From Nevskiaceae bacterium (GTDB lineage Bacteria > Pseudomonadota > Gammaproteobacteria > Steroidobacterales > Steroidobacteraceae), in contig VEQP01000016.1 in the NCBI GenBank assembly GCA_018883185.1, positions 1 to 62,544 on the forward strand: a stretch of DNA of 62,544 bases, in the 5' to 3' direction. This document shows, piece by piece, positions 9,253-61,482 of the stretch. The notes under the pieces were generated by a model that ran no database searches, was not told the DNA's origin, and was given only the letters and a program-made list of their open reading frames with translations. Numbering within the stretch: the first letter of the stretch is position 1; every line of letters begins with the position of its first letter. The translations under genes and the position numbers were made by a program.

Positions 9253-10608
9253 TCAGCGAGCGGGCTCAACCCGCTCAGGCAATTTATAGAACCACAGGAA
9301 AATGAGCCCCGCGGTGTAGGCCAGCGAGGGAATGCCGACAAGGCTGAGGATTACCGCGAGTTCTGCGCTTGGCGGCTGTTGCTCTAGCGGCAGGTTCTTG
9401 TCGAAGTGCATCATCTGCAGCAACTCGCCGAGCAGCAACGGCCCGAGCGAGTAACCCAGTCTTTCGATGAAGACGTAGACCGACGTGTAGAGCCCCTCGC
9501 GTCGCAGGCCGGTGCGCTCACGATCGTGATCGATGGTGTCGAGCCACATCGCCTGACTGAAGAGCAGTATGGCCGAAGAAAAAATTCCCGCGAGGATTCC
9601 TCGCGCCACGAAAAACGCGGTGGAGTCCTCCGGCGTTGCGAGCAGCCACGTGAGCGTGGCAAACACCTCGCCGACAATGCCGATGGCGAGTCCGGTCCGC
9701 TTTGTCATGTAGCGACCGAGCCAGCGAAACACGGGGATGAAGATCACTGTGCTTGCGATCGTGGCGACAGCCAGTTGTGACATCAGCGAGAAGTCGCGCT
9801 TCAGTACCATGACGACGAAAAAAGCCGTGGTGGCGCCGCCCGCCGAGAGGGCGATGAACTGCAGCACCTTGATACCAACCATCATCATGAACGGACGATT
9901 GTCGAGCACAGCTCGAAACTGGTCGCGAATCGGCACATGGGATGCCGCTTCATCGATTTGCGAGGCATTGGCCGTTCGTGTGCCGAAGAAGGTGGTCATC
10001 ATCACGGCGAATACGAGGGCGCCGTAGATCGCTCCCAGAGTCTGATATGAGTCGGGGTTCTGACGACCGAGTTTCTCGACGAGCAGCGGGGCGAGGGCAC
10101 TGCCTGCGACCGAGCCGAACATCATGAACACCGAGCGGTAGCCCATGATGCCGAGACGCTGCATGCGGTCTCGTGTCATCTCCACGGGCATGGTCAGGTA
10201 GGGCACGTTGAAGATGGTGAAGCCGAGTGAATACACCACGAGCACGGCGAGGGCGAGATAGGGCGCGTTACTCGGGCTTACCATCAGGTGCAATGAGTAG
10301 ACGAGTGGCAGGCTGACGGCACAGATCACCGCGCCGAGTAGCAGATACGGTCGGCGTCTTCCCCAACGCGAGCGTGTTCGATCGGTGATCCAGCCCATCA
10401 GCGGATCGCTGATCGCATCGGCGAACCGTGCAATGAACACGATCAAGCCGGCGATCCCGGGCTCCATCTTGATCACGGTCGTGAGGTAAACGAGTACGAG
10501 TGCCGTGACGACGTTCAGGTAAACAATGGTTCCGAAGGAGCCTAGGCCCCAGCTGAACCGCACTCGCCACGGGATGGCCCCCGGCTCGGCTGCCGGGTCA
10601 GCCGACAT
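9253..10608 (-). CDS. MFS transporter, GPH (glycoside-pentoside-hexuronide:cation symporter) type
   Basis: The 451-residue membrane protein has the GPH hallmark segments: FSWGLGSFGTIVYLN in helix 1, FADAISDPLMGWITDRTRSRWGRRRP in the first long cytoplasmic loop (the cation-binding Asp region and basic loop), and a central soluble linker. GPH carriers usually import sugars or glycosides with Na+ or H+, although many bacterial relatives have unknown substrates. It is the last gene of a minus-strand operon (hydrolase, MT1, coiled-coil protein, this carrier). Its ATG overlaps the 3' end of the coiled-coil gene by 11 bases, which indicates translational coupling to that small protein. Confidence 0.8.
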   Translation of the reverse strand: MSADPAAEPGAIPWRVRFSWGLGSFGTIVYLNVVTALVLVYLTTVIKMEPGIAGLIVFIARFADAISDPLMGWITDRTRSRWGRRRPYLLLGAVICAVSLPLVYSLHLMVSPSNAPYLALAVLVVYSLGFTIFNVPYLTMPVEMTRDRMQRLGIMGYRSVFMMFGSVAGSALAPLLVEKLGRQNPDSYQTLGAIYGALVFAVMMTTFFGTRTANASQIDEAASHVPIRDQFRAVLDNRPFMMMVGIKVLQFIALSAGGATTAFFVVMVLKRDFSLMSQLAVATIASTVIFIPVFRWLGRYMTKRTGLAIGIVGEVFATLTWLLATPEDSTAFFVARGILAGIFSSAILLFSQAMWLDTIDHDRERTGLRREGLYTSVYVFIERLGYSLGPLLLGELLQMMHFDKNLPLEQQPPSAELAVILSLVGIPSLAYTAGLIFLWFYKLPERVEPAR

Positions 10609-10903
10609 CGCCTTGTCGCGCGAGGCTTTCGAAGGTGTAGGAGTCGGCGTGCGGTGCTCCGGCCACTCGCTCGATCAGCACGGCGCGCTCTCGTTCGAGC
10701 TCTTTGGCGAGATCCCCTTGCGGTACGAAATCATTGAGTTGCTTGCGATCGAGCAGGTTTTTTTCCTGCAGCAAGTGCTCGAGGACCGTGACGCGATCAC
10801 GCAGGATCCATAGTTCGGCAAGCAACTCGCTGTTCATCCGCATCAGGTCATCAAGTTCTTTCTGACCCAGGTAGGGGCGTTCGGGGCGATCGACAGTACG
10901 CAT
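10598..10903 (-). CDS. Small coiled-coil protein coupled to GPH transporter
   Basis: The 101-residue acidic/basic protein has no signal peptide or membrane helix. Residues about 18-50 form a heptad-patterned helix (ELLAELWILRDRVTVLEHLL), followed by RKQLNDFVPQ and a second charged helix. I do not recognise it from a named family. It aligns clearly with the small protein at 61150-61482 through the pattern ELxxE[LV]x[IV]LR[DE]Rxxx[LV]E[HR]LL, then Rxx[LI]xx[FY]xPQ. Both sit immediately upstream of an MFS gene and overlap its start. MT1 ends 12 bp upstream. A regulatory or scaffolding subunit for the transporter is a guess from context. Confidence 0.7.
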   Translation of the reverse strand: MRTVDRPERPYLGQKELDDLMRMNSELLAELWILRDRVTVLEHLLQEKNLLDRKQLNDFVPQGDLAKELERERAVLIERVAGAPHADSYTFESLARQGDVG

Positions 10904-10915
10904 CGTGATGAGTCC

Positions 10916-12004
10916 TCAGGCGGGCTTGCGACCGCGGGTGACCCACGGATAGCCACGCTTCTCGAGCGCAAATTCATCCACGTCAACGAAGCCGGCATCT
11001 CGCATGATCTCGGCCAGGTTGATTGAGGCTGCGGCGGAGAAGAACGGTTCGGCCCGGTTGTCGGTGTCCCAGTCGAGGATTACCGCCTGCATCGGATTTA
11101 CGGCGCGGAACGGCGGCGGATCGTTGATGATCATCTCGCCGCCTGGGCGAAGGATGCGGAACATCTCACGGATGACCTTCTCGGTGACGACCGGTGGCAT
11201 CTCGTGGTGAACGGCGTAAGAGATGACGACGTCGACGCTGTCGTTTTGCTCGGCAACGTTGCAGCCGTCTTCTTGGCGGAAGGTGATGTTGAGGCCCAGC
11301 ATCTCGCTCATGAAGTGGCCCGAGCGCAGCAACGCGGGTGACAGATCGCCGCCGATCAGTTCTGCATTCGGGAACTTTTGCCGAGCTACGCTCAGCGTTG
11401 TCGCGCCGCCGCAGCCCACTTCGTAGATGCGCTTAGGATCGCCCACGCGCAACTGATCGAGCACCCGACCGCGTTGCGAGCGGATGTCGGCGAAGACATC
11501 GACGGCCGCGTAGCCGCCGTGCACGAAGACGTAGGGTCCAATGCCCGCCATGAACATGGGTTGGGTCATGTCGTAGCCGTCCCAGCCGCCAGGCTCGAGG
11601 TGCCACTCCACGCCCTCGTACCAAGACGGGATCTCCAGGTCGGGGTTTAGCTGCAGCCGCGAGGTATCTGTGGGCTTCTTGGCTTCGGCGATGGCCTGCC
11701 ACTCGGCGCGGCGTGCCTCCACGGCCGGGATAGCGCGAATGTAATTCTGCTCGCCGACCCAGCGCTGGTAGAAGCGGTTGAACCGGTAGGCTTTCGAGCG
11801 CTCCACGACATCACGAGCGCGTCTCAGTCGGTCTTGCCACACATGCGGTCGTGCATCGCCCTTGAACTCTTCGGCGAGTTCAGGTGCCTCAGGCTGAGTG
11901 GCGAAGTCTTGCTCTGCGATGTCACGCAGTGCGGAGCTCGAGAAGGTTTGCAGCGAGCCGAGGAACTGCAGGCCGGCGCGGCCGCGTTGCTTGAGTGTGA
12001 TCAT
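10916..12004 (-). CDS. SAM-dependent methyltransferase (MT1) with N-terminal extension
   Basis: This is a class I methyltransferase of 362 residues. The SAM-binding fold spans about residues 190-300: motif I YEVGCGGATTLS, acidic end of strand 2 LIGGDLS, motif IV region DVVISYAVHHEM and post-motif FRILRPGGEMIINDPP. About 190 residues precede the fold and contain RLQLNPDLEIP...VEWHLEPGG, a motif shared with MT2 and MT3. After the fold comes LDWDTDNRAEPFF, also shared. The gene overlaps the hydrolase stop by 4 bases (12001-12004) and is followed by the coiled-coil protein and GPH carrier. The methyl acceptor is unknown; the HH(E) segment after motif IV resembles small-molecule O- or C-methyltransferases. 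Confidence 0.8.
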   Translation of the reverse strand: MITLKQRGRAGLQFLGSLQTFSSSALRDIAEQDFATQPEAPELAEEFKGDARPHVWQDRLRRARDVVERSKAYRFNRFYQRWVGEQNYIRAIPAVEARRAEWQAIAEAKKPTDTSRLQLNPDLEIPSWYEGVEWHLEPGGWDGYDMTQPMFMAGIGPYVFVHGGYAAVDVFADIRSQRGRVLDQLRVGDPKRIYEVGCGGATTLSVARQKFPNAELIGGDLSPALLRSGHFMSEMLGLNITFRQEDGCNVAEQNDSVDVVISYAVHHEMPPVVTEKVIREMFRILRPGGEMIINDPPPFRAVNPMQAVILDWDTDNRAEPFFSAAASINLAEIMRDAGFVDVDEFALEKRGYPWVTRGRKPA

Positions 12005-12936
12005 GGACGGGAACCTCCACTATCGAGTTCGTTCCAGAATGTACCTAATGCGGTATTGAGTTCGGCTGGTGATTCCAGCGGCAGCAGCCTTCCGGCAGAG
12101 GCCAACTCCACTACGCGGCCGTTGCTGAACCCGGCACCGATCTTTTTCGCCATCTCCGGCGTGAGTACGGTATCTCCCGTGCCGACGGGGATCATCACCG
12201 GCATCCGCAGTTTCGGCAGCACCTCGCTGGCGGCCGGCTGCTGCTCGGCGGCGGTGAGGAACGCGACGAAGGTTTCATACGGTGTCTGCTCGAGCATGGA
12301 GCGGTAGCGGGCCCGCGCCGTCAACGAGGCCGAGGGCGCGACGATGTATTCGTTGAAGCGTCGGAACAATGTGTCCTTCCCCTCGATCACGACGGTGCGC
12401 GCGTTCTCGGCGCGGTAACGTACTCCCGCCGGATCCAGCGTGCCGCCGATGACGGAGCTGATCAGGGTCATCGATCGACAGCGCTCCGGGCGCTGCGCGC
12501 ACGCCAGCATCGCGATGTTACCGCCACCGCTCAGGCCGACGATATCAACGGGTTCGCGAACACCCACTGCGTCCAGAAACTCGAGTAATTCGGCGGCGTA
12601 GCGCTTCGAGTCGACTTTCGTTGCGGTGAGGTGGGATGAATTACCGTGGCCGGAGAAATCGGGTGCGAGACAGCGCCGTGTTTCGCACAGCGCATTCAAC
12701 TGATCCGTCCAAAGGCGCGAGTCGAGCAGCAGCGCGTGCACGAAGAGTACGGGGCGACCCTTGCCGCGCTCCCTGTAACTGATCTGCACGTTGCTGAGGT
12801 CTGCCACGCGCTGCACCACAGGTGCGGCGTGTGCCGGCGTAACGCCGCTCATCAACAACCCTGCCACTGTCAGCATCGCCGCGCAGTTGTTGCGCAGTGC
12901 TGACACCCGAGATCGACAACGCGATGAGGTGCTCAT
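12001..12936 (-). CDS. Exported alpha/beta hydrolase-fold protein, catalytic His replaced
   Basis: The 311-residue protein has a basic N-terminus and hydrophobic stretch to VTPAHAAPV, a Sec-type signal. The alpha/beta hydrolase core shows the oxyanion-side FVHALLLDSRLW, nucleophile elbow GLSGGGN and the acid in GTGDTVLTPE. The position expected for the catalytic His (AGHLLPLE in relatives) reads AGRLLPLE; the codon at 12088-12090 is AGG (Arg) on the coding strand. The protein may therefore be non-hydrolytic or use another base. It is first in the minus-strand operon, with a 4-base overlap into MT1, and is divergent from the TonB receptor gene across 184 bp. Confidence 0.78.
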   Translation of the reverse strand: MSTSSRCRSRVSALRNNCAAMLTVAGLLMSGVTPAHAAPVVQRVADLSNVQISYRERGKGRPVLFVHALLLDSRLWTDQLNALCETRRCLAPDFSGHGNSSHLTATKVDSKRYAAELLEFLDAVGVREPVDIVGLSGGGNIAMLACAQRPERCRSMTLISSVIGGTLDPAGVRYRAENARTVVIEGKDTLFRRFNEYIVAPSASLTARARYRSMLEQTPYETFVAFLTAAEQQPAASEVLPKLRMPVMIPVGTGDTVLTPEMAKKIGAGFSNGRVVELASAGRLLPLESPAELNTALGTFWNELDSGGSRP

Positions 12937-12981
12937 GAGGTCCTAGACTAACTCCGAATCACGCGCTGGGAGGATTTCGAC

Positions 12982-13020: not shown

Positions 13021-13120
13021 CAAAGGTATTGGACGCCAAACCTGCTGCGCGTGACTGTGATCACATGCCGGCGTGGCTGATCAACAACAACAGCCGGTAG
13101 TCCATCAACGGGAGGATTGA

Positions 13121-15616
13121 ATGTCTCAGCGAGCATCGTTTCGAACTCAAGTTTTGATTGCCGCGGCCGTGGCGGCTGCAGTCAGTGGCACAGCCAGCGC
13201 CCAAGCGCAGTTGGAAGAAATCGTCGTTACCGCCCGTCGAACGGCGGAGTCGCTGCAGGAAACTCCCATCTCGGTCACCGCTTTCACCGCCGAGTCGATC
13301 GAGCGTCGCGGTATCCGCAACGTGCAGGATCTGGTGCGTTTCACGCCGGGTCTGAGCTTCGATAAGGGTTTTGCACCCCAAGACACGCGTCCGAATATCC
13401 GCGGATTGCCAACCACTCGCGGTCGTCCGCCCATTGGCATTCTTCTTGATGGCATCGATATTTCCTCCGAGTCCATCGCCACGGCGGGTGGCTCGAACCT
13501 CATGAACCTGAAGCTCGTCGATGTCGAGCGAATCGAGGTGGTCAAGGGCCCGCAAAGCGCGCTGTACGGCCGAGTGGCCTTCGGTGGCGCCATCAATTAC
13601 GTCTCGAAGCGTCCGAGCCTCGATAAGCAAGAGTCGAACGTCACGCTCGATCTGGCGACGGGCGGACTCGTCGAGACCCGCGGGTCGATCAACCTGCCGG
13701 TCAGCGACACGGTGGCGCTGCGTATCAATGCCCTCTATAGCTCGTTCGATGGCTTCTTCACCAACAGCATTTCGGGTGAGGACATTGGCGGTTGGGACAC
13801 GAAGGGCGTCGCTGCTGCGCTGCGCTTCAAGCCCAGCGACAACGTCGATTTCACCGCGCGGCTGTCGTACTCCGATGACGAATCGGGCCCGCGTGCCTCG
13901 TACTACGTGGGTCAGGCCGTTCCGGGCCGTAACACTCGGCTGAATCTGCCCGCGAACGCTGTGGGTCTTCGCCTCGGCGTGCCTCCGGGCGGCTCGCCGC
14001 TGCCTGCCTCGATCCCGTACCCGGCGATCGGGGAGGCTCAACTGGGCGACAAGATCCTGCTCAGTGTTGACCCGTTGACGGGCAAAGATTACGAAGGCAG
14101 CACGCTGAAGGCGCTGGTGTTCAGCCTCGTCGGCGAAGTCGACATGGGTTGGGCGACGTTCAACACCTGGACGGGCTACACCAAGGCCGACACGCTGAGT
14201 CGCGCTGATGCCGACTTCTTCGCCGCACCCGCAGCGGCGTCGACGCGGCCGATCGCAGGCAGCTACGAAGCGTTGCCGGCCTTGTCGATCACCGACCTCG
14301 ACACCGAAGCGAAGCAAGTCAGCCAAGAATTCCGCCTCGGCAAATTCGACGGCGATGGTCTGCGCTGGGGCGTAGGCGCGCTGTACTGGAAGGAAGACTA
14401 TTCCAGCATCAACGCCTCGATCTTCATCGGTGGTTACTTCCGTAATCCGCCGCTGGTTCCGGCCGGAGCACCGTGGTCGGCGGCAGCCGAAGTGGCCGCA
14501 CGCGGCAAGATCGCGGGTGACCCCAACTACCGCAACACGGAGCACAAGTCGGCCTACGTTACGCTGGCCTACGACGTCACCGAGCAACTCGAGGTCAGTG
14601 CCGAGGCACGCTACAGCGAAGAGCAGTTCGACTATCTCTTCGGTCGTGCGCTGTCGCTCGGTGTGAATGCGGCGACGGGTGCGCTCAATCCGGCGACCTT
14701 CGCGGGCAGCGTCTTCACGCCGTCTTCGAGCACGGATTTCTTTGCACCGAAAGTCACCGTCAACTACACCCCGGTCGATGGGAAGTTGATCTATGCCACG
14801 GCCTCCAAGGGCGTGAAGCCCGCGGGCTTCCTGAACGTGGGTGTGGTGCTCGATGCAAACGATGCCAAGTACAACCCCGAGGAATTGTGGAACTACGAAC
14901 TCGGCTTCAAGACCTCGTGGATCGATGATCGTTTGCGAGTTAACGGCGCCCTGTTCCAGATGAAGTACACCGATCGCATCGCGCAGATTCTGGTGCCGGA
15001 TACCCGTAGCCCGCAGGGCACCTCAACGCTGGTCCGCAACCAGGGTGAGGCCAAGGTCGATGGCGCAGAACTTGAGATCACGGCGGCTCTCTCCGAGAGT
15101 GTCACGTTGTCGGCCGGCTACACCTATATCGATGCACGCTTCATCGAGTCGGAGGTGCCCAACACTTCGGCACTTGGTATCGCGGGCTCAGGCAACTGCC
15201 GCGTCGGCAACGTGGGCACACAGGTCGTGTGCTTCACCAATACGAACGGCAAGAGCCTCGAGCAGTCGGCCAAACATGCGCTCGTCGCTTCGGTCGCCTA
15301 CTCGCGCGAGATGGCGAACGGCTGGACGCTGAACGGCGAGATCACCGGGCAGTGGCGTAGCAAGCGCTTCCTGTCGCCCGATAACCTCGTTTGGCTGCCG
15401 AAGCACTCGAACGTTGACCTGCAAGTTGGCATGTCGAACGACAAGTACACCGTCGTGGCCTATGCGAACAACCTGTTCGATTTCACGGGCGCCACGTCGG
15501 CGCAGAGCTACGGCGATCCGTACATTGCCTTCCCGGTTGCTCCGCCTGTGCTGGCGTACACGACGTACCCTGCCGATCCGCGCCAGATCGGCGTTCGGCT
15601 CGGCATGAAGTTCTAA
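13121..15616 (+). CDS. TonB-dependent outer-membrane receptor
   Basis: This is an 831-residue TonB-dependent transporter. The Sec signal ends near SGTASAQAQ. The plug begins with LEEIVVTARRTAESLQETP, the TonB-box/plug opening common in receptor families of Sphingomonas, Caulobacter and Steroidobacter-type bacteria. The plug continues through VQDLVRFTPGLSF and VERIEVVKGPQSALYGRVAFGG. The barrel ends in an aromatic-terminated strand (IGVRLGMKF). A GGGAGGA ribosome-binding site precedes the ATG. It opens the long plus-strand operon, suggesting that the operon's substrate enters through this channel. The ligand is not deducible; there is no nearby FecIR pair or siderophore gene to suggest iron. 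Confidence 0.92.
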   Translation: MSQRASFRTQVLIAAAVAAAVSGTASAQAQLEEIVVTARRTAESLQETPISVTAFTAESIERRGIRNVQDLVRFTPGLSFDKGFAPQDTRPNIRGLPTTRGRPPIGILLDGIDISSESIATAGGSNLMNLKLVDVERIEVVKGPQSALYGRVAFGGAINYVSKRPSLDKQESNVTLDLATGGLVETRGSINLPVSDTVALRINALYSSFDGFFTNSISGEDIGGWDTKGVAAALRFKPSDNVDFTARLSYSDDESGPRASYYVGQAVPGRNTRLNLPANAVGLRLGVPPGGSPLPASIPYPAIGEAQLGDKILLSVDPLTGKDYEGSTLKALVFSLVGEVDMGWATFNTWTGYTKADTLSRADADFFAAPAAASTRPIAGSYEALPALSITDLDTEAKQVSQEFRLGKFDGDGLRWGVGALYWKEDYSSINASIFIGGYFRNPPLVPAGAPWSAAAEVAARGKIAGDPNYRNTEHKSAYVTLAYDVTEQLEVSAEARYSEEQFDYLFGRALSLGVNAATGALNPATFAGSVFTPSSSTDFFAPKVTVNYTPVDGKLIYATASKGVKPAGFLNVGVVLDANDAKYNPEELWNYELGFKTSWIDDRLRVNGALFQMKYTDRIAQILVPDTRSPQGTSTLVRNQGEAKVDGAELEITAALSESVTLSAGYTYIDARFIESEVPNTSALGIAGSGNCRVGNVGTQVVCFTNTNGKSLEQSAKHALVASVAYSREMANGWTLNGEITGQWRSKRFLSPDNLVWLPKHSNVDLQVGMSNDKYTVVAYANNLFDFTGATSAQSYGDPYIAFPVAPPVLAYTTYPADPRQIGVRLGMKF

Positions 15617-15620
15617 GTTG

Positions 15621-16625
15621 ATGCCGAGCGAGGGGTCTGCCAGGGGGGAGGCCACGAGTAGCGGGTGGGTGACGCGAGTCACCCGCCCGTTTCTTTTTGT
15701 CTTCGTCGCCCTGATCATGGTGACGTCCACCACCGCGTCGGCGGCGGAGTCTTCTGGGCTCATCGACGATGCCACGCTCGAGGCGCGGTATGCCGGGACG
15801 CCCTCGCAGTTTTTGATGGTGGATGGCGTGCGGCTGCACGTGCGCGACGAGGGCCGGGGTCCAGCGCTGATGCTGCTCAATGGACACCTTGGCAGCCTGC
15901 ATATGTGGGAGCCGTGGATTCCGGAGCTCACGCGTCACTTTCGAGTGATCCGTCTCGATTACCCGCCTTACGGGTTGTCGGGCCCGGACCCGAGCGGTGT
16001 CTACAGCACCGAACGTGCGGTGCAGCTCGTCGGCAAGTTGGCCGATCAACTCGGTCTGAAACGCTTTCACATTGGCGGCACGTCGAACGGTGCGATGGTC
16101 GCGTTGTTTTTCGCGATCGAGCATCCCGAGCGCGTGGATCGGCTCGTGGTGTCGACTCTGCCGGCGGGGCGTCCGCCGGCGCGTCAGCCGAGTGCGGCGA
16201 TGAGGGCTGCGGCGCAACAACTTCGTGCGCAGGCCCCGTACCAGCCGCGCGAGTTCTGGCAGGCGTTTCTCGATGACATCACGGCGAACGACGGCGTGGT
16301 GACGCCCGAACTCGTCACGCGGTATCACGACCTGAATAATCGCGAGGGCGCGAAGGCTTGGGTCGACGCCTACATCCAGACCCAGTATCGGGTTTGGGAT
16401 ACGCTGGATGTGCCGCAGTATTACGGGCGGCTGACACGTCCCGTGCTCCTGCAGTGGGGCGCAGACGGGGTAGTGCTGCCCGAGGCGATCGGCGGCCAGG
16501 TCGCAGCGCTGCTGAAGGGGGCGCCCGTCACCCTGCGTCAATACCGCGGTGCCGGTCACTTGCCCATGATCGAACAGCCGACCGCGACCGTGCGAGACGC
16601 GATCGAGTTCTTGAAGGCGCGTTGA
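15621..16625 (+). CDS. Exported alpha/beta hydrolase
   Basis: The ATG at 15621 lies 4 bp after the TonB receptor stop. The 334-residue product has a hydrophobic N-terminal segment (FLFVFVALIMVTSTTASAAES), likely a Sec signal, although a later ATG (MVTSTTASA) is possible. The alpha/beta hydrolase fold keeps a full triad: nucleophile Ser in GGTSNGAM, Asp in WGADGVVLPE and His in GAGHLPMIEQ. A periplasmic esterase, amidase or C-C hydrolase acting on the compound imported by the receptor is plausible from the context. It contrasts with the His-lacking homologue on the other side of the divergent promoter. Confidence 0.82.
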   Translation: MPSEGSARGEATSSGWVTRVTRPFLFVFVALIMVTSTTASAAESSGLIDDATLEARYAGTPSQFLMVDGVRLHVRDEGRGPALMLLNGHLGSLHMWEPWIPELTRHFRVIRLDYPPYGLSGPDPSGVYSTERAVQLVGKLADQLGLKRFHIGGTSNGAMVALFFAIEHPERVDRLVVSTLPAGRPPARQPSAAMRAAAQQLRAQAPYQPREFWQAFLDDITANDGVVTPELVTRYHDLNNREGAKAWVDAYIQTQYRVWDTLDVPQYYGRLTRPVLLQWGADGVVLPEAIGGQVAALLKGAPVTLRQYRGAGHLPMIEQPTATVRDAIEFLKAR

Positions 16626-16653: not shown

Positions 16654-17823
16654 GTGTTGAATCGCACCGCCGCGGGACCGCTCATCGACTTCAAACGCGA
16701 CGACAAAGCGCGAGGCGCTTTCGTCTCGGCGCTGCGTCGTCACGTGCTCGAAGATCTGGGCGGGGTCATGCAAGCGGACTTCGCCTCGCGTGTGGCAGCG
16801 CAGCCACCTGCCGAGGGTTGGAACGCCGAGCAGGTGCATCAGGCGATGCGTTCGCGGCAGTCTTTCCGCTTTTACTCGGCGCTACGCACCTGCTCGCAGG
16901 ATTTGCTGTATCAAACGGTGCGGGCGCCAATCGAGCGATCGCGCGCTGCGCTGATGCAGGAGGCCCCAGATGCGGGCGGCTCACTCCTGCTTGATCCGCA
17001 GTTGCCGGTGCCGCGCTCCGTCTCGGCGATCGATATTCATCTGATGCCGGGTAGCTATCACACCGAGTACGGCGCGGACGATCAGACCATGGGCGCGGTG
17101 TATGAGCAGCGACTGGCCCTGTCCACCTTCGGTGTGTTCGGACCGAACCTTGATGACATTGGACAGTCGATCGCGCGCTTCATGCGATTGCACCATCCGC
17201 GATGGCGTCCGAAGCGCATTCTTGATCTGGGGTGCACGGTCGGTCACAACACCGGGGCTTGGAAGGATGTGTTCCCGAGTGCCGAAGTCCACGGCATAGA
17301 CGTGGCTGCGCCCTGTCTGCGCTACGCGCATGCACGGGCTTGCGCGCAACAACGCGCCGTTCACTATCGGCAGATGAACGCCGAGACCTTGGCGTACGCC
17401 GACGGCCACTTCGATCTGGTGTTTTCCTCTATGTTCCTGCACGAGTTGCCACGTCGTTCTCTGGCGCGCGTGTTTCGTGAAGCGCACCGAGTGCTACGCC
17501 CGGGCGGCTTGATGTTGCACATGGAATTGCCGCCAGCGATGCAGTTGTCGGCCTACGAGTCGTTTCATCTTGATTGGGATGGCCACTACAACAATGAGCC
17601 CTTCTACCGGGCGTTTCGCGCGTGTGATCCTCGGCAATTGGTGGCCGAAGCCGGGTTCGCCACGGGGCGATACGTGCAGCATGTCGTTCCTTCTTGGAGC
17701 GCGCTGGGTCCTACCGCCTGGCGGCGTGCGGTGCGCGCTAATGAAGCTTCGGTGGATTCACCGCAGACGGGCCGATTGGCTCGTGGCGTGCGATGGTTTT
17801 GTTTCGGCGCCTGGAGAGACTGA
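16654..17823 (+). CDS. SAM-dependent methyltransferase (MT2) with N-terminal extension
   Basis: This 389-residue class I methyltransferase starts at GTG 16654. It is collinear with MT3 (58564-59763) throughout, including the first 190 residues. It shares LLLDPQLPVPRSVSAIDIHL, motif I LDLGCTVGHNTG, HGIDVAAPCLRY, HFDLVFSSMFLHELP, HRVLRPGGLMLHMELP and the post-core DWDGHYNNEPFY. The N-terminal region shows no recognisable domain and may bind the substrate. The next gene, an MFS transporter, starts 3 bp after its stop. It sits in the TonB-receptor operon. The family's acceptor is unknown. Confidence 0.8.
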   Translation: MLNRTAAGPLIDFKRDDKARGAFVSALRRHVLEDLGGVMQADFASRVAAQPPAEGWNAEQVHQAMRSRQSFRFYSALRTCSQDLLYQTVRAPIERSRAALMQEAPDAGGSLLLDPQLPVPRSVSAIDIHLMPGSYHTEYGADDQTMGAVYEQRLALSTFGVFGPNLDDIGQSIARFMRLHHPRWRPKRILDLGCTVGHNTGAWKDVFPSAEVHGIDVAAPCLRYAHARACAQQRAVHYRQMNAETLAYADGHFDLVFSSMFLHELPRRSLARVFREAHRVLRPGGLMLHMELPPAMQLSAYESFHLDWDGHYNNEPFYRAFRACDPRQLVAEAGFATGRYVQHVVPSWSALGPTAWRRAVRANEASVDSPQTGRLARGVRWFCFGAWRD

Positions 17824-17826: not shown

Positions 17827-19092
17827 ATGACGAACCCTGGATTTCTCGGATGGCGGGTCGTTGCGGCATCCACCATCGGTCTTGGATGCGGACTCGGCAC
17901 GCTGGTGGCGGCGACCTTCGGGGTCTTTCTTGGTCCGTTGCAACAGCAGTTCGCCTGGTCACAGAGCTCTGTGCTGACGGCGTTGCTCGTCGTGACCATC
18001 ACCGCCTCGTTCCTCGCGCCCGTGGTGGGAGCGGTGGTCGATCGCTTCGGCGCGCGTCGCATCATCCTGGCCTCGTTTGTCGCCGAGATGCTGATCGTGG
18101 GTTCACTCGCTTTCCAAAGCGATAATCTGTGGACGTTTTATCTGCGTTTTTTCTTGCTCGCGGCATTCACCTTGGGCACGACGCACGTCGCATTCGCGCG
18201 GGTGCTTACCGTGTGGTTCGACCGTCGCCGCGGCCTCGCGCTCGGCATCGCGTTGTCGGGTATCGGCATCGGCGGGTTCATCTGGCCGCTGTACGCTCAG
18301 TTCATGATCGGCGAGTTTGGTTGGCGCAACGCTTATTTGCTTTTGGCGGTGGCCGTGGCTGTCTTTGCGTTGCCGGTGATTTTTTTCTGGCTTAAAGACA
18401 CGCCGCAGTCCGTAGGGCAGTGGCCCGACGGTGATTCGGCGCCTCACGACGGAGTGGCGCGCGGCGATGATCGCTCGGTGCCGTTGTCGAGTGCGCAGGG
18501 CATGACGCTCGGTGAAGCCAGCCGAACGGGGCAGTACTGGTTGATGATCGTCACGTTCTTTTTGATCGGCTTTGTCGTGCAGAGCATCATCCTGCATCTG
18601 GTGCCGTTGCTGACGGGGCGGGGCGTCTCGCCGATGCGCGCGGCTCTTGCCCAGTCGACCTTGTTTCTCGCCCTGACCACCGGCCGCTTGGTCACCGGCT
18701 GGTTGATGGACCGGTTTTTTGCCCCGCGCGTAGCGCTCGCGTTCCTCATCGCGCCGATTGTGGGCATCGTCATGCTGGCGCTCGGCGTCAGCGAATGGCT
18801 TGCGGTGATCTCGGCCTTGTTGGTGGGACTGGCGGTCGGGGCGGAAGTGGATGTGCTGGCCTATCTTACGGGGCGATATTTCGGGGCTCGGCACTTCGCG
18901 GCGGTGTACGGATCGTTCTACGGCATCTATTCGCTGAGCGGCGGCATCGGTCCGTTCGTCACTGCACTGGCCGTGGAGCGGTTCGGCGGTTACACGCCGG
19001 TGTTGCTCGCCCACTCGGCGGTGCTCGTCGTGTGCTGCGTGTTGTTGCTGCGCTTTGCGGCCTTTCCGAGCAAGTCACAAAGCGCCTCATGA
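17827..19092 (+). CDS. MFS transporter, OFA/monocarboxylate-like
   Basis: The 421-residue protein has twelve predicted helices. It opens GWRVVAASTIGLGCGLGT and carries VVGAVVDRFGARRIILASF in loop 2-3 and FARVLTVWFDRRRGLALGIALSGIGIGG, the pattern of the oxalate:formate-antiporter/MCT-like MFS group that moves organic anions. It lies 3 bp behind MT2, and its stop overlaps the next ATG by 4 bases. This MFS subfamily differs from the carriers that accompany MT1 (GPH) and MT3 (Spinster-like), so the methyltransferases, not the carriers, are the conserved element. Confidence 0.8.
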   Translation: MTNPGFLGWRVVAASTIGLGCGLGTLVAATFGVFLGPLQQQFAWSQSSVLTALLVVTITASFLAPVVGAVVDRFGARRIILASFVAEMLIVGSLAFQSDNLWTFYLRFFLLAAFTLGTTHVAFARVLTVWFDRRRGLALGIALSGIGIGGFIWPLYAQFMIGEFGWRNAYLLLAVAVAVFALPVIFFWLKDTPQSVGQWPDGDSAPHDGVARGDDRSVPLSSAQGMTLGEASRTGQYWLMIVTFFLIGFVVQSIILHLVPLLTGRGVSPMRAALAQSTLFLALTTGRLVTGWLMDRFFAPRVALAFLIAPIVGIVMLALGVSEWLAVISALLVGLAVGAEVDVLAYLTGRYFGARHFAAVYGSFYGIYSLSGGIGPFVTALAVERFGGYTPVLLAHSAVLVVCCVLLLRFAAFPSKSQSAS

Positions 19093-19838
19093 ACGTTTTA
19101 TTGTTGAAAGTACTGCTCGTTCCCTCGCTCATTGCGCTCGTCACTTTAGCGGGGCGTCGTTGGGGGCAGCGCTTGGCCGGTTGGCTTGGCGGATTCCCGA
19201 TCGTCGCGGGGCCGGTGCTGCTTGTGCTCGCCATCGAGAATGGCAACGGGTTCGCCGCTGAAGCGGCGTTTGCTGCGCTCGTGGGTCTGGCTCCGGCGAT
19301 GTTGTTTTATTTGGCTTATACCCATTTCGCGACGCGGGTTCGTTGGTTTGTCGCAGCTCCGGCGGCTCTACTGTGTTGGGTTGCGGCGATCGGAGCGTTG
19401 CATCTATTTCAGCCCTCGTTGTGGTTGGGTATCGCGCTGGGTGCCAGCGCTTTGTGGCTCGTGCCACGACTGATGCCCGCTGCGATGGTCGGTGAATCGC
19501 CTAAACCGCATCCACTGGAACTGGCCTCGCGCATGGTGGTGGGCGCGGCGGTCACCGTGTTCAGCAGCGAGCTCGGGCGGCGTGGCGGCGCGCAGCTGAG
19601 CGGGTACGCGGCGCTCTTCCCATCGATCGGGCTCGTCGTGGCGAGTTTCAATCACGCGCAGGGCGGAGCCGCCGCGGCGACGTTGTTTCTGCGCGGTATG
19701 ACCCGCGGCATGTGGTCGGTGGCGAGTTTTTGCCTGACATTGATGTTTGTGCTGCCGCGCGCATCCTTGGGCATGGCGTTTCTCGCCGCCACGCTGGTGG
19801 CTATGCTCACTCATTGGCTGTCGAGGCCGCTGCCATGA
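19089..19838 (+). CDS. Unrecognised integral membrane protein
   Basis: I chose ATG at 19089, which overlaps the upstream MFS stop by 4 bases; a longer frame upstream runs inside the MFS gene. The 249-residue product is almost entirely hydrophobic, with about seven or eight helices. The N-terminal GRRWGQRLAGWLGGFPIVAG followed by ENGNGFAAEAAF resembles a widespread family of uncharacterised inner-membrane proteins whose function I do not know. The second half (SELGRRGGAQLSGYAALFPS) may repeat the theme of the first (the GGFPIVAGP and GYAALFPSIG segments), suggesting internal duplication. Its stop overlaps the SDR start. Confidence 0.7.
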   Translation: MNVLLLKVLLVPSLIALVTLAGRRWGQRLAGWLGGFPIVAGPVLLVLAIENGNGFAAEAAFAALVGLAPAMLFYLAYTHFATRVRWFVAAPAALLCWVAAIGALHLFQPSLWLGIALGASALWLVPRLMPAAMVGESPKPHPLELASRMVVGAAVTVFSSELGRRGGAQLSGYAALFPSIGLVVASFNHAQGGAAAATLFLRGMTRGMWSVASFCLTLMFVLPRASLGMAFLAATLVAMLTHWLSRPLP

Positions 19839-47136: not shown

Positions 47137-47332
47137 GCGGGGTCTGCCGGAGAGGGGCTGCGTCGGCAGCCACCGGGGGTGGGAGAATACTCGCCTTGTG
47201 CGCCATGTCGCAATGCAGCACTATATAAAACAATGCTTTAAGTGACTTTCCTAGATCGAGTGCAGGCCATGGCGCCCCAATCTGTGGTCTAATGCACTCG
47301 CGGTTTAGATCACTCACAACCGCCTATTTCGT
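47137..47332. promoter_or_regulatory. Divergent promoter region of the polyamine locus
   Basis: The 196 bp between the divergent puuA (minus) and puuD (plus) starts contain an AT-rich core (47220-47243, ACTATATAAAACAATGC) able to supply a TATATA-like -10 for the minus operon, and TCTAAT (about 47286-47291) for the plus operon. I find no convincing -35 boxes or a clear operator. The puuD start lacks an obvious Shine-Dalgarno sequence. Confidence 0.4.
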
Positions 47333-48103: not shown

Positions 48104-48107
48104 TGTT

Positions 48108-49448: not shown

Positions 49449-49468
49449 GCACGCAGTACCATGGGCGC

Positions 49469-50839: not shown

Positions 50840-50969
50840 CCGGCAGTCCGTGGTAGGCCTCGCCGCGGTCTTTCCCGCGCAGCATTGCTGGGATATAAAA
50901 GGCGACAGGTGCCCGCCGAGGCGCCGTTTCCTGCCCCTCACCACGCTCAATCAGGGAGAGACCCGCACC

Positions 50970-52070: not shown

Positions 52071-52094
52071 GCCACGAGTCATCATCACACCGCG

Positions 52095-52123
52095 CGGCGG
52101 GGTCAAATCCATCGACCCCGCCG
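52095..52123 (+). terminator. Intercistronic stem-loop after potF (attenuator or mRNA stabiliser)
   Basis: CGGCGGGGTC (52095-52104) pairs perfectly with GACCCCGCCG (52114-52123) around a 9-nt loop. No T-run follows, so full termination is unlikely. Such hairpins behind binding-protein genes commonly protect the upstream message or allow partial read-through into the ATPase and permease genes. Confidence 0.6.
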
Positions 52124-52172
52124 TCGGGTTCACCCGCAAAGGGACTGGGGCTTACCGACGTAGGGGCGCAAG

Positions 52173-53282: not shown

Positions 53283-53288
53283 CGCGTC

Positions 53289-57046: not shown

Positions 57047-57052
57047 CGACGC

Positions 57053-58567
57053 TCAAGCGCGCTCGATCGGCAGGGTCAGCCCCAGCCAGCGCCCGAGGGC
57101 GAGTGCAGGGGTAAGCATCATGCCGGGGACAAAGGCATTACCCAAGGTAGCGCCGCTGCCGAGCACTTCGCCTGCCGCATAGAGATTCGGAATCGGTGTG
57201 CCATTCTTTCGGGTGACGCGCAGTTGCGCATCGACTGTGACGCCGACTGAGGATGTCGCCGAGTGTCCGAGGTGGGTGACGGCATAGTAGGGCCCTTGCG
57301 AAATGGCCCGCGGTAGATGCCTTCGCCCCAGACTGTCTTGGCCTTGCGTTACCGCCACGTTGTATTGCTCTATGCTGGCTCGCAGACCCGCTCCGTCAAT
57401 GCGCGTCTTCGCGGCGAGTTCCTCGATCGACTCGGCTCGATGAAACATCGGGTGGGTGTTGAAGTGGGCGAGGAATTTTTCCTTGCTCCAGTCGGGAATC
57501 TGCTGCGGCGCAGCGTCGACGATCGCCTGATCGAAGACGATTTGATAGCGCAGCTGCGGTTGTTCGAGCAGGGCTTGCTCGCGTTGGTTGGTCAGCGGTT
57601 CGTCTTCGCGAATGAATCGCTTGCCGGCATTGTTGACCCAGATTTCCCAAGGCAGACGTCGTTGCGGAACGGTGTTGAATCGGGCGTAGACCGTGGCTGG
57701 AAACTGCCCAGCGGTGAGAATCGATCCGGTACCGGGGCGGTGCAGGTCGTGTCCGCGCAGCACGCCACCGACGGCTGTCGCGAGACTCAAGCCATCGCCC
57801 AGCGCCTGCGGGTAGGAACCGGAGGAATAAGCCGGCACACCGCTGAGTTCCGCGAATAGACGCGGGTTCATCGCATAACCGCCACTCGTCAGCAGCACGT
57901 GACGCGCACGCACGCGCTGCTCCGCTCGCTCGCCCTGTGCCACGCGTACGCCCGTGACTGCACCGCTTTGATCCTGCAACAGACCTGTGACCTGGGTTCG
58001 CATTCGCAGGGTGATGTGACCTGAGCTCACCAGCGGCGCGATTTGAGGGCGGATCACATCAAGGATGGCGACGCCTTCTTCTTTGGCCCAAATGTAGCGC
58101 GGCGTGTCATAGGCCTTGCGACCCGGGCTGTCGCCCGTCACTGGATGCTCCGGCAACGGCTTCAGGCCCGAATCAAGCAACCAATTGACCGTGTCCGGAG
58201 CCTGTAAGGTCGCGAGACGCACGACGTTTGGATCGGCCCGGCCGTTGGACAGACGCATCGCTTCTTCGAAGTGCTGCTGCGGCGAGTCGACGATGCCCTT
58301 TGCTCGCTGCGTGTGCGAGCCCGCAGCGCTGATCTGTCCGTTGGCCAAGTGCAGCGTGCCGCCGATGTCATCCGCACGATCGAAGACGACGACCCGCGCA
58401 CCACGGCGTGCCGCGAACAGTGCGGCGGGCAAACCCGCAGTGCCCGCACCGATGACGGCAAGATCGTATACGTTCGTGTCTTTGGCCACTGACTCCTCCG
58501 CCACACTGGCGAGTGACAGCGCACCGGCCACGCCGAGTCCGCCATGGATAAACGTTCGTCGCTTCAC
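57053..58567 (-). CDS. Tat-exported FAD-dependent oxidoreductase (fumarate-reductase/ketosteroid-dehydrogenase-like)
   Basis: The 504-residue flavoprotein begins with a Tat leader (KRRTFIHGGLGVAGALSLAS). The FAD_binding_2 fold follows: DLAVIGAGTAGLPAALFAARR, FDRADDIGGTLHLANGQIS, HVLLTSGGYAMNPRLF and the C-terminal PNLYAAGEVLGSGATLGNAF. Relatives include fumarate/urocanate reductases and 3-ketosteroid dehydrogenases, which transfer hydride across C-C double bonds. The usual fumarate-reductase HHTMGG segment reads LGHSATSSVGVTVD, so the substrate is not fumarate. The start overlaps the MT3 stop by 4 bases. It is the last gene of the MT3 cassette. Confidence 0.82.
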   Translation of the reverse strand: MKRRTFIHGGLGVAGALSLASVAEESVAKDTNVYDLAVIGAGTAGLPAALFAARRGARVVVFDRADDIGGTLHLANGQISAAGSHTQRAKGIVDSPQQHFEEAMRLSNGRADPNVVRLATLQAPDTVNWLLDSGLKPLPEHPVTGDSPGRKAYDTPRYIWAKEEGVAILDVIRPQIAPLVSSGHITLRMRTQVTGLLQDQSGAVTGVRVAQGERAEQRVRARHVLLTSGGYAMNPRLFAELSGVPAYSSGSYPQALGDGLSLATAVGGVLRGHDLHRPGTGSILTAGQFPATVYARFNTVPQRRLPWEIWVNNAGKRFIREDEPLTNQREQALLEQPQLRYQIVFDQAIVDAAPQQIPDWSKEKFLAHFNTHPMFHRAESIEELAAKTRIDGAGLRASIEQYNVAVTQGQDSLGRRHLPRAISQGPYYAVTHLGHSATSSVGVTVDAQLRVTRKNGTPIPNLYAAGEVLGSGATLGNAFVPGMMLTPALALGRWLGLTLPIERA

Positions 58568-59763
58568 CCGCGCCGCTCCGCGCCGAAGATGAACCAGCCA
58601 CCGCTGCCATGGGGTGGCGCTGCCAGCTCGCCTTTCAGAAAGCGTGAGTAGCGTTCCTCACCGAACGATGCCGCATCCGGAATGGTGAGTTTAAAGGCAT
58701 CAGTCGACAGGAAGCCGGCGTCCAAACACAGCGCAAGCGGATCCTGATCGCGGTAGTTGGTGTAGAACGGCTCGTTGTTGTTGTGGGTATCCCAGTTCCA
58801 GAAGAAGTTTTCGTATTCGCTCACGGACGCAGCATCCGGCAGTTCCATATGCACCATCAGGCCGCCCGGCGTGAGCAACCGATGACACTCGCGCAGCACG
58901 TTGCGCGTAGCCTTGAGCGGAATCTCGTGCAGGAAAAAACTCGACACAATCAAATCGAAGTGGCCATCCGGGAAATCCGTGTGCTCGGCGTTTTGCTGAC
59001 TGAAGTGCACCGCAATGCCCTCGTGCTCAGCCAGTGCGTGACCGTAGCGCAGCACGGGCGCTCCGCAATCGATGCCATGCGCCTCACTTTGCGGGAACGC
59101 GCTCTTATACGGCAGCAGGTTTTTGCCAGCCGTGGTACCAAGATCGAGGATGCGACGCGGTGTGAAGCCGGGTCGCGTGCGTTGTATCCAGTGCGCGATC
59201 GACTCGGCGACGACCCCTGGCCGCTTCCGATAGGGATGCTGACCGGTAAAGACTTTGCCGCCAAAGCCCACGACGGCGCCTTGTGAGACATCGTCGACGG
59301 TGTGTTCTGCGGTTACCCAGCCCGGTGCGAGATGCACATCGAGTGCGCTGAGATAGCGCGGCACCTCGAAGCTTGGATCGAGGCGCAATGACCCGCCTGC
59401 AGGATTGCGCGTGGCCAGATCACGCGCCAGGTCTATCATCTCGGGTAGGGCGCGTTCAATTGCCGGTTGCACTGACAGGTAGCACATCTCCTGCGCGTTG
59501 TAGCGCAGCGTGCTGTAGAGCCGGTGCAGCGGGTCGGGTTCCATAACGCGCTCGATGTCGCGCCAGTTCGCAGGCTCGGCGCCACGCGCGCGCAAGTTCG
59601 GAGCGACCTCGGCCTCGTAGTGCCGACGCACCGCGGCGCGCAGGTCGATGATCGCGTGCTTGCGTAGCATGCTGACAAATGATTGCCGCGCCCGTTCGTC
59701 ATGGGTTGGGCGGAACAACTCGTCGATGTTCGGGGTTGGAATCTCTTCGGCGCGTGCAGCCAT
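58564..59763 (-). CDS. SAM-dependent methyltransferase (MT3) with N-terminal extension
   Basis: ATG at 59763 follows AGGACACGC; the longer upstream frame is not supported. The 399-residue protein is collinear with MT2: N-terminal SFVSMLRKHAIIDLRAAVRR, RLDPSFEVPRYLSALDVHLA, motif I ILDLGTTAGKNLLPYK, HGIDCGAPVLRYGHALAEHE, HFDLIVSSFFLHEIP, RLLTPGGLMVHMELPD and NWDTHNNNEPFYTNY. It lies 28 bp downstream of a Spinster-like MFS gene and overlaps the FAD oxidoreductase gene. The acceptor is unknown. Compared with MT2, the motif I Cys becomes Thr, which does not preclude SAM binding. Confidence 0.8.
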   Translation of the reverse strand: MAARAEEIPTPNIDELFRPTHDERARQSFVSMLRKHAIIDLRAAVRRHYEAEVAPNLRARGAEPANWRDIERVMEPDPLHRLYSTLRYNAQEMCYLSVQPAIERALPEMIDLARDLATRNPAGGSLRLDPSFEVPRYLSALDVHLAPGWVTAEHTVDDVSQGAVVGFGGKVFTGQHPYRKRPGVVAESIAHWIQRTRPGFTPRRILDLGTTAGKNLLPYKSAFPQSEAHGIDCGAPVLRYGHALAEHEGIAVHFSQQNAEHTDFPDGHFDLIVSSFFLHEIPLKATRNVLRECHRLLTPGGLMVHMELPDAASVSEYENFFWNWDTHNNNEPFYTNYRDQDPLALCLDAGFLSTDAFKLTIPDAASFGEERYSRFLKGELAAPPHGSGGWFIFGAERRG

Positions 59764-59791
59764 GGTGCGTGTCCTCCGCTGTCGAATCGTA

Positions 59792-61153
59792 TCAGTCCGC
59801 CTCGCCCCAGTTGGCGGCGCGTCGTACTGCAGTCTCGTAGCTGATGCGGCCATAGGCGAGGATGGCGATGCCGATGGCACCACCCATGAAACATACCAAC
59901 GCCAGGCTCGGCGCGATACCGGTCGGGTAATTGAACACCGTATCCGATAGGAAGCCTACGGCGCCCGAACCGACGGCGATGCCGACGAGGCCGGTCAGCA
60001 GCGTGTACACCGCCACCACCTGACCGCGTAGCTGGTTGGGCGTGACCTGATTTAGGGCGGTGAGCGCCGCCGTGACGGCCCAAGTGGCGAACAGCGAGGT
60101 GAACACATGGCCTAAGAGCGCGAGCTCCGGCGTCGGTGCGAAGCATTTGGCTGTGCCGAATACAGCCCAAGCGAGGCACTGCAGCATCATCACGAGAATT
60201 GGGCCGTCCTTGCGACCGCGCTTGGCGAGCCAGGTGAGGGCGTACCCTGCCGTGATAGCGCTGATGATGCCGAACGGCACGCCAACTACGGCCAGTGCCA
60301 GCGCGATACGTTGCGGTTCCCATTCATAAACGCGCACGAACAGTGTCGGGAACCAGGCAAGCTGCGCGTTGACGATCATGACGTTCATGATCGTACCCAT
60401 CATTACTGCGACGAGGGCCATGCGGTTGGTGGACAGTTCACGCCACAGCGGTACAAGTGAAATCTTCGACCCGGCTGCAGTCGTCGCACCACGTCGTTCC
60501 GGCTCGCGCATGGTGAGCGCCATCAGCACGGCGAGTAGGATCCCGGGCGCAGCTACGATGAACAACACCACCTGCCAATCGCTGAAGCGACCGAGCACTC
60601 CGGGTGCCATCGCTTGCACCGAGTCTGCGAGACCGATGGCCACACCGCCTAGCATGTAGGCGATGCCGATCCCGATCGAACCTCCCATGGCGAACACGCC
60701 ATAGGCACGTGGCCGCAGCTTTGGTGGGAAGTAGTCGGCAATCAACGAGGAGGAAGCCGGCGTGATGGTGGCTTCACCCGCGCCCATGACGACGCGCGAG
60801 GAAAACAAACCCCAGAACGATTTGGAGAGTCCGCCGGCCATGGTGGCGAGACTCCAGATCGCGAGTCCGCCGTAAACGACTGGCACACGCTTCCAGCGAT
60901 CGATCAGAAAGCCGACCGGCAACGTGAACAAACTGTAGAACAACGCGAACGCGAGCCCCTGGATGATGCCAATTTCGGTGTCAGAGAGTTGCAGGTCTGC
61001 CTTGATCGGCTTGACGAGCAGGCCGATGACAATTCGATCGACTACGCCGAGTGCGTACGACATGACCAGCAACGCGACGACGTACCACGCGTAGACCGGG
61101 TTCGGCCAGGGTTTCGACGCGGCGTTCGCCTCGTTCGCGGGCTGGATGCTCAC
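59792..61153 (-). CDS. MFS transporter, Spinster-like
   Basis: The 453-residue membrane protein shows helix 1 VYAWYVVALLVMSYALGVVD followed by RIVIGLLVKPIKADLQLSD, the charged TM1 Asp-Arg pair of Spinster-like carriers. Loop 2-3 is GFLIDRWKRVPVVYGGL, and GAGEATITPASSSLIADYFP is a hallmark of that group, which exports lipophilic or organic-anion substrates. Its start overlaps the 3' end of the coiled-coil gene by 4 bases. With MT3 and the FAD oxidoreductase it forms a four-gene minus-strand operon. Confidence 0.82.
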   Translation of the reverse strand: MSIQPANEANAASKPWPNPVYAWYVVALLVMSYALGVVDRIVIGLLVKPIKADLQLSDTEIGIIQGLAFALFYSLFTLPVGFLIDRWKRVPVVYGGLAIWSLATMAGGLSKSFWGLFSSRVVMGAGEATITPASSSLIADYFPPKLRPRAYGVFAMGGSIGIGIAYMLGGVAIGLADSVQAMAPGVLGRFSDWQVVLFIVAAPGILLAVLMALTMREPERRGATTAAGSKISLVPLWRELSTNRMALVAVMMGTIMNVMIVNAQLAWFPTLFVRVYEWEPQRIALALAVVGVPFGIISAITAGYALTWLAKRGRKDGPILVMMLQCLAWAVFGTAKCFAPTPELALLGHVFTSLFATWAVTAALTALNQVTPNQLRGQVVAVYTLLTGLVGIAVGSGAVGFLSDTVFNYPTGIAPSLALVCFMGGAIGIAILAYGRISYETAVRRAANWGEAD

Positions 61154-61482
61154 GTGCCGGATCCGTGTGCGGGTTCGCTCGCTTGTGCGGTCGGTGGCGG
61201 ATGCATGCGGAACACGCGTTTAAGATACGCATCGCGCCAAGCATTGCGTTCGGCATCGACGGCGGCCTGCGGCTGATAGGCCTCGATCGCTTCACGGGTC
61301 ACGGGTATCCCCGCATCGAGCAAGCGCTCTACGGTATCAAGTCGTTCGCGCAACACCGCCACTTCGGTGGTCAACTCGATCAGAAAGGTCATCATCTGAT
61401 CGATCGACGGATCATCGAAGAAAACAGGCCGTCTGCCACGAGTGGTGCGAGGCAGGGAGACTTCCGTGGGTGCTTTGCTCAT
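61150..61482 (-). CDS. Small coiled-coil protein coupled to Spinster-like transporter
   Basis: The 110-residue soluble protein has a basic N-terminus (RTTRGRRPVFFDDPSID), a heptad helix (ELTTEVAVLRERLDTVERLL), then TREAIEAYQPQAAVDAERNA and a Pro-rich tail. It shares with the small protein at 10598-10903 the order D..M...., ELxxE, LR[DE]R, LExLL, Rxx[LI] and [FY]xPQ, covering about 65 residues. Both immediately precede and overlap an MFS gene. I do not recognise the family. The heptads suggest self-association or binding to the carrier's cytoplasmic face. Confidence 0.72.
   Translation of the reverse strand: MSKAPTEVSLPRTTRGRRPVFFDDPSIDQMMTFLIELTTEVAVLRERLDTVERLLDAGIPVTREAIEAYQPQAAVDAERNAWRDAYLKRVFRMHPPPTAQASEPAHGSGT

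Follow-up and report, generated by a model that had tools for sequence, protein, structure and literature searches.

The stretch of DNA analysed here (the window, 62,544 nucleotides of contig VEQP01000016.1 from a Nevskiaceae bacterium) encodes three members of one methyltransferase family, MT1, MT2 and MT3, and two small helical proteins of about 100 residues, c1a and c1b. Below, MT denotes the family of MT1-3 and c1 the small partner; the 2.8 Mb genome that contains the window is called the own genome and genes found elsewhere are called foreign. An earlier reading of the window, made from its letters and translations (the sequence-only reading), had proposed three cassettes, each composed of a methyltransferase gene and a transporter gene of the major facilitator superfamily (MFS). 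All three MT open reading frames (ORFs) that it picked out are present, MT1 and MT3 on the minus strand and MT2 on the plus strand (Table 1). Absent from that reading were the two c1 genes of the window and 15 further MT paralogues of the own genome.

The methyltransferase family and its small partner

The sequence-only reading placed an MFS gene beside each MT. This is so for MT2 and MT3, but at MT1 the c1a gene stands between the methyltransferase and the carrier. The MFS subfamilies given for the first two carriers were supported, GPH-type by a match to MFS_2 and OFA/monocarboxylate-like at MT2, both with scores under the NCBIfam cut-offs. The varying partners were also as described, with a hydrolase beside MT1, an FAD_binding_2 oxidoreductase beside MT3 and a short-chain dehydrogenase (SDR) downstream of MT2. 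The MT3 operon has the order c1b, MFS, MT3, FAD_binding_2.

Table 1 Genes of the window referred to in the text
Feature	Position	Strand	Remarks
DUF1838 protein	8446..9228	plus	family scan
GPH-type MFS carrier	9253..10608	minus	accessory gene in MT1 operon; MFS_2 E 1.1e-77
c1a, small helical partner of MT1	10598..10903	minus	12 bp downstream of MT1; profile match 2.0e-30 (c1a itself among profile rows)
MT1	10916..12004	minus	intact ORF, Methyltransf_25 core; divergent member, long branch in MT tree
Alpha/beta hydrolase	12001..12936	minus	upstream of MT1, 4-base overlap
TonB-dependent receptor	13121..15616	plus	between MT1 and MT2 operons
Alpha/beta hydrolase	15618..16625	plus	upstream of MT2
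MT2	16654..17823	plus	intact ORF, Methyltransf_25 core; without adjacent c1
OFA/monocarboxylate-like MFS carrier	17827..19092	plus	downstream of MT2
SDR	19835..20824	plus	in MT2 operon
FAD_binding_2 flavoprotein	57053..58567	minus	4-base overlap with end of MT3
MT3	58564..59763	minus	intact ORF, Methyltransf_25 core; structure predicted
MFS carrier	59792..61153	minus	between c1b and MT3
c1b, small helical partner in MT3 operon	61150..61482	minus	end overlaps start of MFS gene

Two motifs had been said to unite the three proteins. The N-terminal motif, L.L[D/N]P....P.......HLxPG, is exact in all of them. MT2 and MT3 match the second, WDxxxNxEPF[FY], without deviation, whereas MT1 reads WDTDNRAEPFF there, with R replacing N. 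The motifs exceed chance, because a profile of MT1-3 alone recovered 15 further members among the gene calls of the own-genome stretches fetched; three weaker matches of that profile (E 7e-14 to 2e-9) were judged to be other methyltransferases and left out. A search of the whole own genome gave 18 MT members at E <= 1e-45. In an 80-row MT alignment P135, H144, G148, D270, H279, E280, L297, G301, E331 and G350 (MT3 numbering) were invariant; H144, G148 and E331 fall inside the two shared motifs, where N329 is kept in 79 of the 80 rows. The residues that bind S-adenosylmethionine (SAM), D207, G209, G213 and D232, are kept in at least 76 rows. In the earliest alignments one row from the own genome, L012, starts late. 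Given these residues, the Methyltransf_25 matches (E 2.2e-16 for MT1, 1.7e-21 for MT2 and 2.7e-18 for MT3) and the MT3 model described below, MT1-3 belong to the class I SAM-dependent methyltransferase superfamily.

Within that superfamily MT1-3 group together as a family that falls outside all the characterised models tried, as the sequence-only reading had suspected. Their best NCBIfam scores fall far under the cut-offs (MT1 49.4 bits against 510, MT2 57 against 180 and MT3 41.6 against 180, among the families listed, 25 of 30 for MT2), and the matches to Protein Data Bank (PDB) sequences (60 listed of 168) start at profile position 157 or later, leaving the N-terminal part unmatched. No literature describing the family was found, judged by titles and the starts of abstracts, a partial coverage that makes this weak evidence of absence. 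They appear to be a bacterial methyltransferase family not previously described.

The predicted structure of MT3 (mean predicted local distance difference test score, pLDDT, 95.5) has two long helices, residues 21-59 and 78-119, forming a hairpin before the class I core. Its SAM-binding core is common with that of the small-molecule class I methyltransferases RebM (3bus), DsyB (7wdq) and Rv2258c (5f8c), but whole chains do not match: the template-modelling (TM) score by query length was at most 0.44 among the 50 PDB matches listed by Foldseek. For the COMT-type O-methyltransferases the comparison likewise covered whole-chain scores. The N-terminal domain of COMT is a winged helix, which the long helical hairpin of the MT3 model does not resemble. 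The c1b model (pLDDT 85.7) is likewise a helical hairpin (helices 25-56 and 73-91), and it carries a conserved N-terminal stretch of the GxRPxFF type.

The c1 proteins were found by clustering the genes around the 18 own-genome MT paralogues. They gave no convincing family or structure match in Pfam (14 proteins scanned), NCBIfam (14), PHROGs (3) or the PDB by sequence, and a fold search of the PDB with one model gave a best E of 2.7. A weak similarity to PspB (TIGR02976 in two of the 14 proteins, best E 0.00031; Pfam PspB in one of 14, E 0.0049) is probably a shared coiled-coil pattern. Trm112, a small methyltransferase partner considered below, has a Pfam model; it was not among the 13 Pfam families listed for the 14 c1 proteins (one member per family, best E 0.0049). 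Fusions of MT and c1 were absent from 111 MT and 84 c1 gene calls.

Against its 18 MTs the own genome counts 16 c1 genes. Eleven of the 18 MTs directly adjoin a c1, and MT3 has one a single gene away. Two others have a more distant c1 (about 3.5 kb for L021 and about 9 kb for C59), and the sequence fetched on either side of L018, L020 and L022 showed none. MT2 is without a c1 of its own, although its relatives L041, L042 and L100 and the own-genome L011 have one. One own-genome c1 lies at a contig end that lacks room for an MT. Another, L040:8105-8431, has an SDR gene and a TonB receptor gene for neighbours but no adjacent MT; on its contig the nearest MT found is about 9 kb off.

Adjacency and matched divergence of MT and c1

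We scanned a collection of species genomes with six closer MTs and kept the best 80 of at least 321 loci as the foreign set. These loci are mostly from Alpha- and Gammaproteobacteria; by title they also include six cyanobacterial, two Binatota, two Acidimicrobiia and one myxococcal locus. The c1 profile used on them was trained on the own genome alone, and adjacency meant the same strand within 400 bp. By this measure c1 adjoins 59 of the 80 foreign MTs; of the 21 that miss it, four lie within 600 bp of the end of the locus and one more has a c1 on the opposite strand. When all MTs of the 80 loci were counted, 72 of 104 had an adjacent c1, which was downstream in 62, and at the loci titled outside Proteobacteria the pair was found in 11 of 11. 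The adjacency counts are independent of the in-house gene caller, which called 93 of the 104 MTs of the frame-based search and performed visibly poorly in L048, L100 and L102. An MT usually adjoins a matching c1, far oftener than a transporter.

The two genes also occur in the same genomes. In 60 related genomes, the own genome included, MT and c1 were each found in 32, always together, and 28 had neither. The 36 genomes outside the own genus divide into eight with both and 28 with neither, a joint pattern to which random placement of the eight gives a probability of about 3e-8, kinship ignored (our arithmetic). A phylum-wide draw of 150 genomes contained two carriers, the own genome and G149, each with MT and c1, which in G149 are 41 bp apart. 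On the MT tree the presence of c1 is clustered, with repeated loss or separation: across the 120 rows, of which 84 have c1, a minimum of 18 label changes is needed, versus 31 when the labels are shuffled (MT3 and one opposite-strand case were scored as having c1).

Two side observations concern individual loci. In the Nostoc loci L068 and L099 the MT-c1 pair begins about 30 bases after a trpB-like gene recognised by eye, which may be incidental. The public records of L067 and L100 are titled as Klebsiella pneumoniae metagenome-assembled genomes (MAGs); their isolate names resemble those of environmental MAGs, the L100 MT lies near MT2 in the tree, and the species label is probably wrong.

Distances among MTs and among their c1 partners were correlated over 80 pairs, 12 from the own genome and 68 foreign (r 0.80, reached by none of 5000 shuffles; four of the 72 adjacent foreign pairs were left out as too short). 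As shared species history explains part of this value, the test was repeated on the 12 pairs inside the own genome, which gave r 0.45 (reached by 9 of 5000 shuffles). In a ranking of the 12 own c1 proteins for each MT, the true c1 came first for nine of the 12, with a mean rank of 1.5 versus 6.5 expected (0 of 20,000), and c1a was top for MT1 and c1b for MT3. MT3 was paired with c1b despite the intervening MFS gene, and one of the two c1 proteins of the L016 MT was used. Hence MT and c1 look to have duplicated and diverged together. The region of MT that best tracked c1 divergence was the N-terminal hairpin (weight 0.42, 5-95% range 0.30-0.57), followed by the C-terminus (0.25) and the SAM core (0.11).

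Copy number and changing neighbours

The family is rare, occurring in one of the 149 other genomes of the phylum-wide draw, and where present it can be greatly expanded; the counts per genome given here can be lower bounds wherever a cap applied to the candidates scored. The 24 genomes of the own genus, own genome included, have 1-31 MT copies. Three related MAGs (L066/G209, L094/G210 and L095/G211), called aquatic from their isolate names, have 64, 58 and 42, and a MAG of a Rhodospirillaceae record (L115/G213) has 52 MTs and 28 c1 genes. In a survey of relatives of the 42-64-copy lineage 10 of 31 genomes had 8-62 MTs and an eleventh had two; fewer candidates were scored there, so that 62 is the count of the same genome for which 64 was obtained elsewhere. 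That most expanded genome has 89 Methyltransf_11 matches versus 28 and 30 in two relatives without the MT family, and its 64 MTs in 4.0 Mb make up about 1.6% of its genes, an estimate that assumes one gene per kb. At the other extreme, one MT and one c1 each were found in two cyanobacteria, a Nostoc and an Okeania. Expansion to dozens of copies has taken place in two or more lineages and suggests that the range of substrates has diversified, and the many copies per bacterium probably serve the modification of many different small molecules. The expansion is the most striking fact about the family.

Neighbours of foreign MTs were counted around the 93 gene-called MTs, with c1 left out of the gene order. 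MFS genes flank six of the 93; 12 have one at a distance of up to two genes and 18 at up to four, versus about 1.9, 3.8 and 7.5 expected. In the own genome an MFS gene flanks four of 18 MTs and lies within two genes of five (0.7 expected) and within four genes of nine (1.4 expected). The background behind these expectations is small (two MFS genes among 192 distant genes), and the MFS seeds were partly drawn from MT neighbourhoods, which biases the counts toward MFS genes near MTs. The association on which the sequence-only reading built exists, above expectation elsewhere and strongest in the own genome, yet it is no rule. With six flanking cases in 93 the MT and MFS genes are not supported as the defining unit; the constant partner is c1. 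As a core partner MFS was weakened, less so for the MT3 branch, where L056 and L065 keep it. At L041 and L100, which hold relatives of MT2, and at L058, which holds a relative of MT3, c1 is present and a recognised MFS gene is absent among the four genes on either side. The placing of c1 differs too: L051 has the order c1, SDR, MT, and L058 has c1 directly beside MT. TonB receptors, proposed as the route by which the substrates enter, show no enrichment near MTs of other organisms (within four genes at 9 of the 93 versus 11.0 expected), and thus entry by such a receptor has no general support.

Several other families are nearly as common near foreign MTs as MFS. Within four genes SDR was found at 14 of the 93 (3.8 expected), an FAD_binding_4 oxidase at 15 (0 expected) and FAD_binding_3 at 14 (7.5 expected), and DUF1838 genes flank five. 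MT clusters elsewhere hold FAD_binding_2, FAD_binding_4 and FAD_binding_3 enzymes, SDR, old yellow enzyme (OYE), hydantoinase/caprolactamase-like, isochorismatase, MmgE/PrpD, HapK and DUF1838 proteins. On plasmid pJE1, where the annotation gives MT as "class I SAM-dependent methyltransferase" and c1 as "hypothetical protein", the pair is clustered with flavoproteins, hydantoinase subunits, MmgE/PrpD, SDR, HapK, two MFS genes and a TonB receptor. A plasmid of strain TomTYG65 also carries a family member; a tomatine study used this strain, and the main text of its report does not contain the word methyltransferase (PMC10653915). Among 91 scanned neighbours in the most expanded genome alpha/beta hydrolase, FAD_binding_2 and glutathione S-transferase (GST) occurred four times each and MFS_1 three times (four loci without an MT gene call contributed no genes). 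That oxidoreductases and transporters recur as neighbours fits chemistry on small molecules. A guess at the substrate from the neighbours was dropped: the gene sets are not constant, and the pairs of L041, L058 and L099 stand among genes of no evident link. Thus the MT-c1 module can stand alone, and its mates vary from operon to operon.

Elsewhere in the window, positions 44474-55060 hold two glutamine synthetase-type genes and a C26 peptidase, with neighbours that resemble an ABC transporter by eye; we take this cluster to be probably ordinary putrescine uptake and degradation. At positions 8-5903 a 1406-residue ORF is followed by an ShlB/FhaC-type transporter gene, judged by order to be a two-partner secretion pair.

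A proposed two-component module and its alternatives

MT and c1 are same-strand neighbours in distant phyla, both samples of genomes showed the two together or not at all, and their paralogues have diverged as matched pairs. We favour, at a probability of about 0.53, the reading that MT and c1 together are the unit, a two-component methyltransferase module for small molecules that varied operons have taken up, of which we infer both the complex and the class of substrate. The module would consist of an enzyme, a class I SAM-dependent methyltransferase whose N-terminus forms a helical hairpin, and a dedicated helical c1 of about 100 residues. c1 would bind MT, most likely via the MT hairpin, and once bound may stabilise the enzyme or shape its substrate pocket, which the conserved H144, H279-E280 and E331 are expected to line. 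MT would methylate small organic molecules, and the module would have entered operons whose oxidoreductases, hydrolases and carriers vary (GPH, OFA-like and a third MFS in the window), with a different substrate for each copy.

Several results weigh against this reading. Thirty-six of the 120 MTs in the tree are without an adjacent c1, and in the three related MAGs 64, 58 and 42 MTs stand against eight, five and six c1 genes; hence c1 is not needed by every member, and most MT copies in the most expanded lineage cannot have their own c1. Residue covariation between MT and c1 gave no preferred interface, the hairpin taking part in 37 of the top 100 pairs versus 30.4 expected (shuffled mean 34.2, standard deviation 4.6; effective number of pairs only 44.8). 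In the MT3 relatives L056 and L065 an MFS gene adjoins MT and FAD_binding_2 lies within three genes, an arrangement close to that of the window; c1 is 6-7 kb off. Finally, in the most expanded genome catabolic-type genes were weakly enriched near MTs (24 of 184 versus 11 of 195 in controls, one-sided p 0.01), and no single neighbour family was significantly so (lowest p 0.17). This comparison used 20 MT and 20 control loci, of which one control was dropped as it held an MT and four MT loci were without an MT gene call.

MT and c1 might instead act in one pathway with no stable complex, c1 being a separate carrier, chaperone or small helper. This is possible but unlikely: the rows without adjacent c1, the own-genome c1 of L040, about 9 kb from the nearest MT found, and the lack of a covarying interface all speak for it, but the matched divergence of the paralogues and the leading weight of the hairpin are the expected traces of specific contact. 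That the MT fold catalyses a reaction other than methyl transfer is improbable. Several of the catabolic-type neighbours need no methylation, but the SAM-binding residues are kept in nearly all rows of the alignment.

A little less probable is the original proposal that MT and an MFS carrier form the functional unit, modifying and moving related compounds. All three window MTs have an MFS gene in their operon, the own genome shows an excess within two and four genes, and the MT3 relatives L056 and L065 retain the carrier with FAD_binding_2 close by; against these stand the sparse flanking counts elsewhere, the three MFS_1 genes among 91 neighbours of the most expanded genome and the absence of a recognised MFS near L041, L100 and L058. 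Lastly, a regulatory or toxin-antitoxin-like pair, in which c1 restrains a harmful methyltransferase, would account for a small partner beside an enzyme, matched pairs, many copies and a wide, patchy distribution. We consider it very improbable, as MTs vastly outnumber c1 in several genomes (64 versus eight in one), L094 has tandem MTs without c1, MT mostly precedes c1 (62 of 72) and the operon mates in the window are metabolic.

The module has a partial parallel in Trm112, a small protein that binds and activates the methyltransferases Trm9, Trm11, Mtq2 and Bud23; the translation machinery is the best-known setting for SAM methyltransferases that have a small activator (PMC5372719). The likeness is that of a small protein partnering a methyltransferase, which for MT and c1 would be a physical partnership. 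The two differ in that one Trm112 serves several enzymes of the translation apparatus, whereas each MT paralogue tends to have its own partner, and in that c1 is predicted to be all-helical, with Pfam matches no better than those given above. For the expansion a parallel is offered by SAR202, aquatic bacteria with paralogue expansions of flavin monooxygenases and enolases (PMC5395668, PMC6946804). Both cases show a single enzyme family that has diverged into dozens of paralogues within aquatic bacteria, but the enzyme family and the phylum are different, and the word methyltransferase is absent from the main text of both reports. A bolder extension, which we regard as speculative and rather unlikely, is that these proteins are a new class of two-component small-molecule methyltransferases in which every copy began with a matching helical subunit that sets substrate choice. 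In this extension, up to 64 copies would serve some aquatic bacteria as a toolkit for unlocking dissolved organic matter that is chemically diverse and hard to degrade, parallel to the SAR202 oxygenases, and the c1-poor lineage would have freed its MTs of the subunit.

The MT-c1 pair offers practical handles in a testable interaction, 12 matched pairs in one genome and cyanobacteria with single copies. If the favoured reading is true, a widespread bacterial methyltransferase-partner pair devoted to small molecules would be a new design. One family at about 1.6% of the genes of a genome points to chemistry hidden by present annotation.

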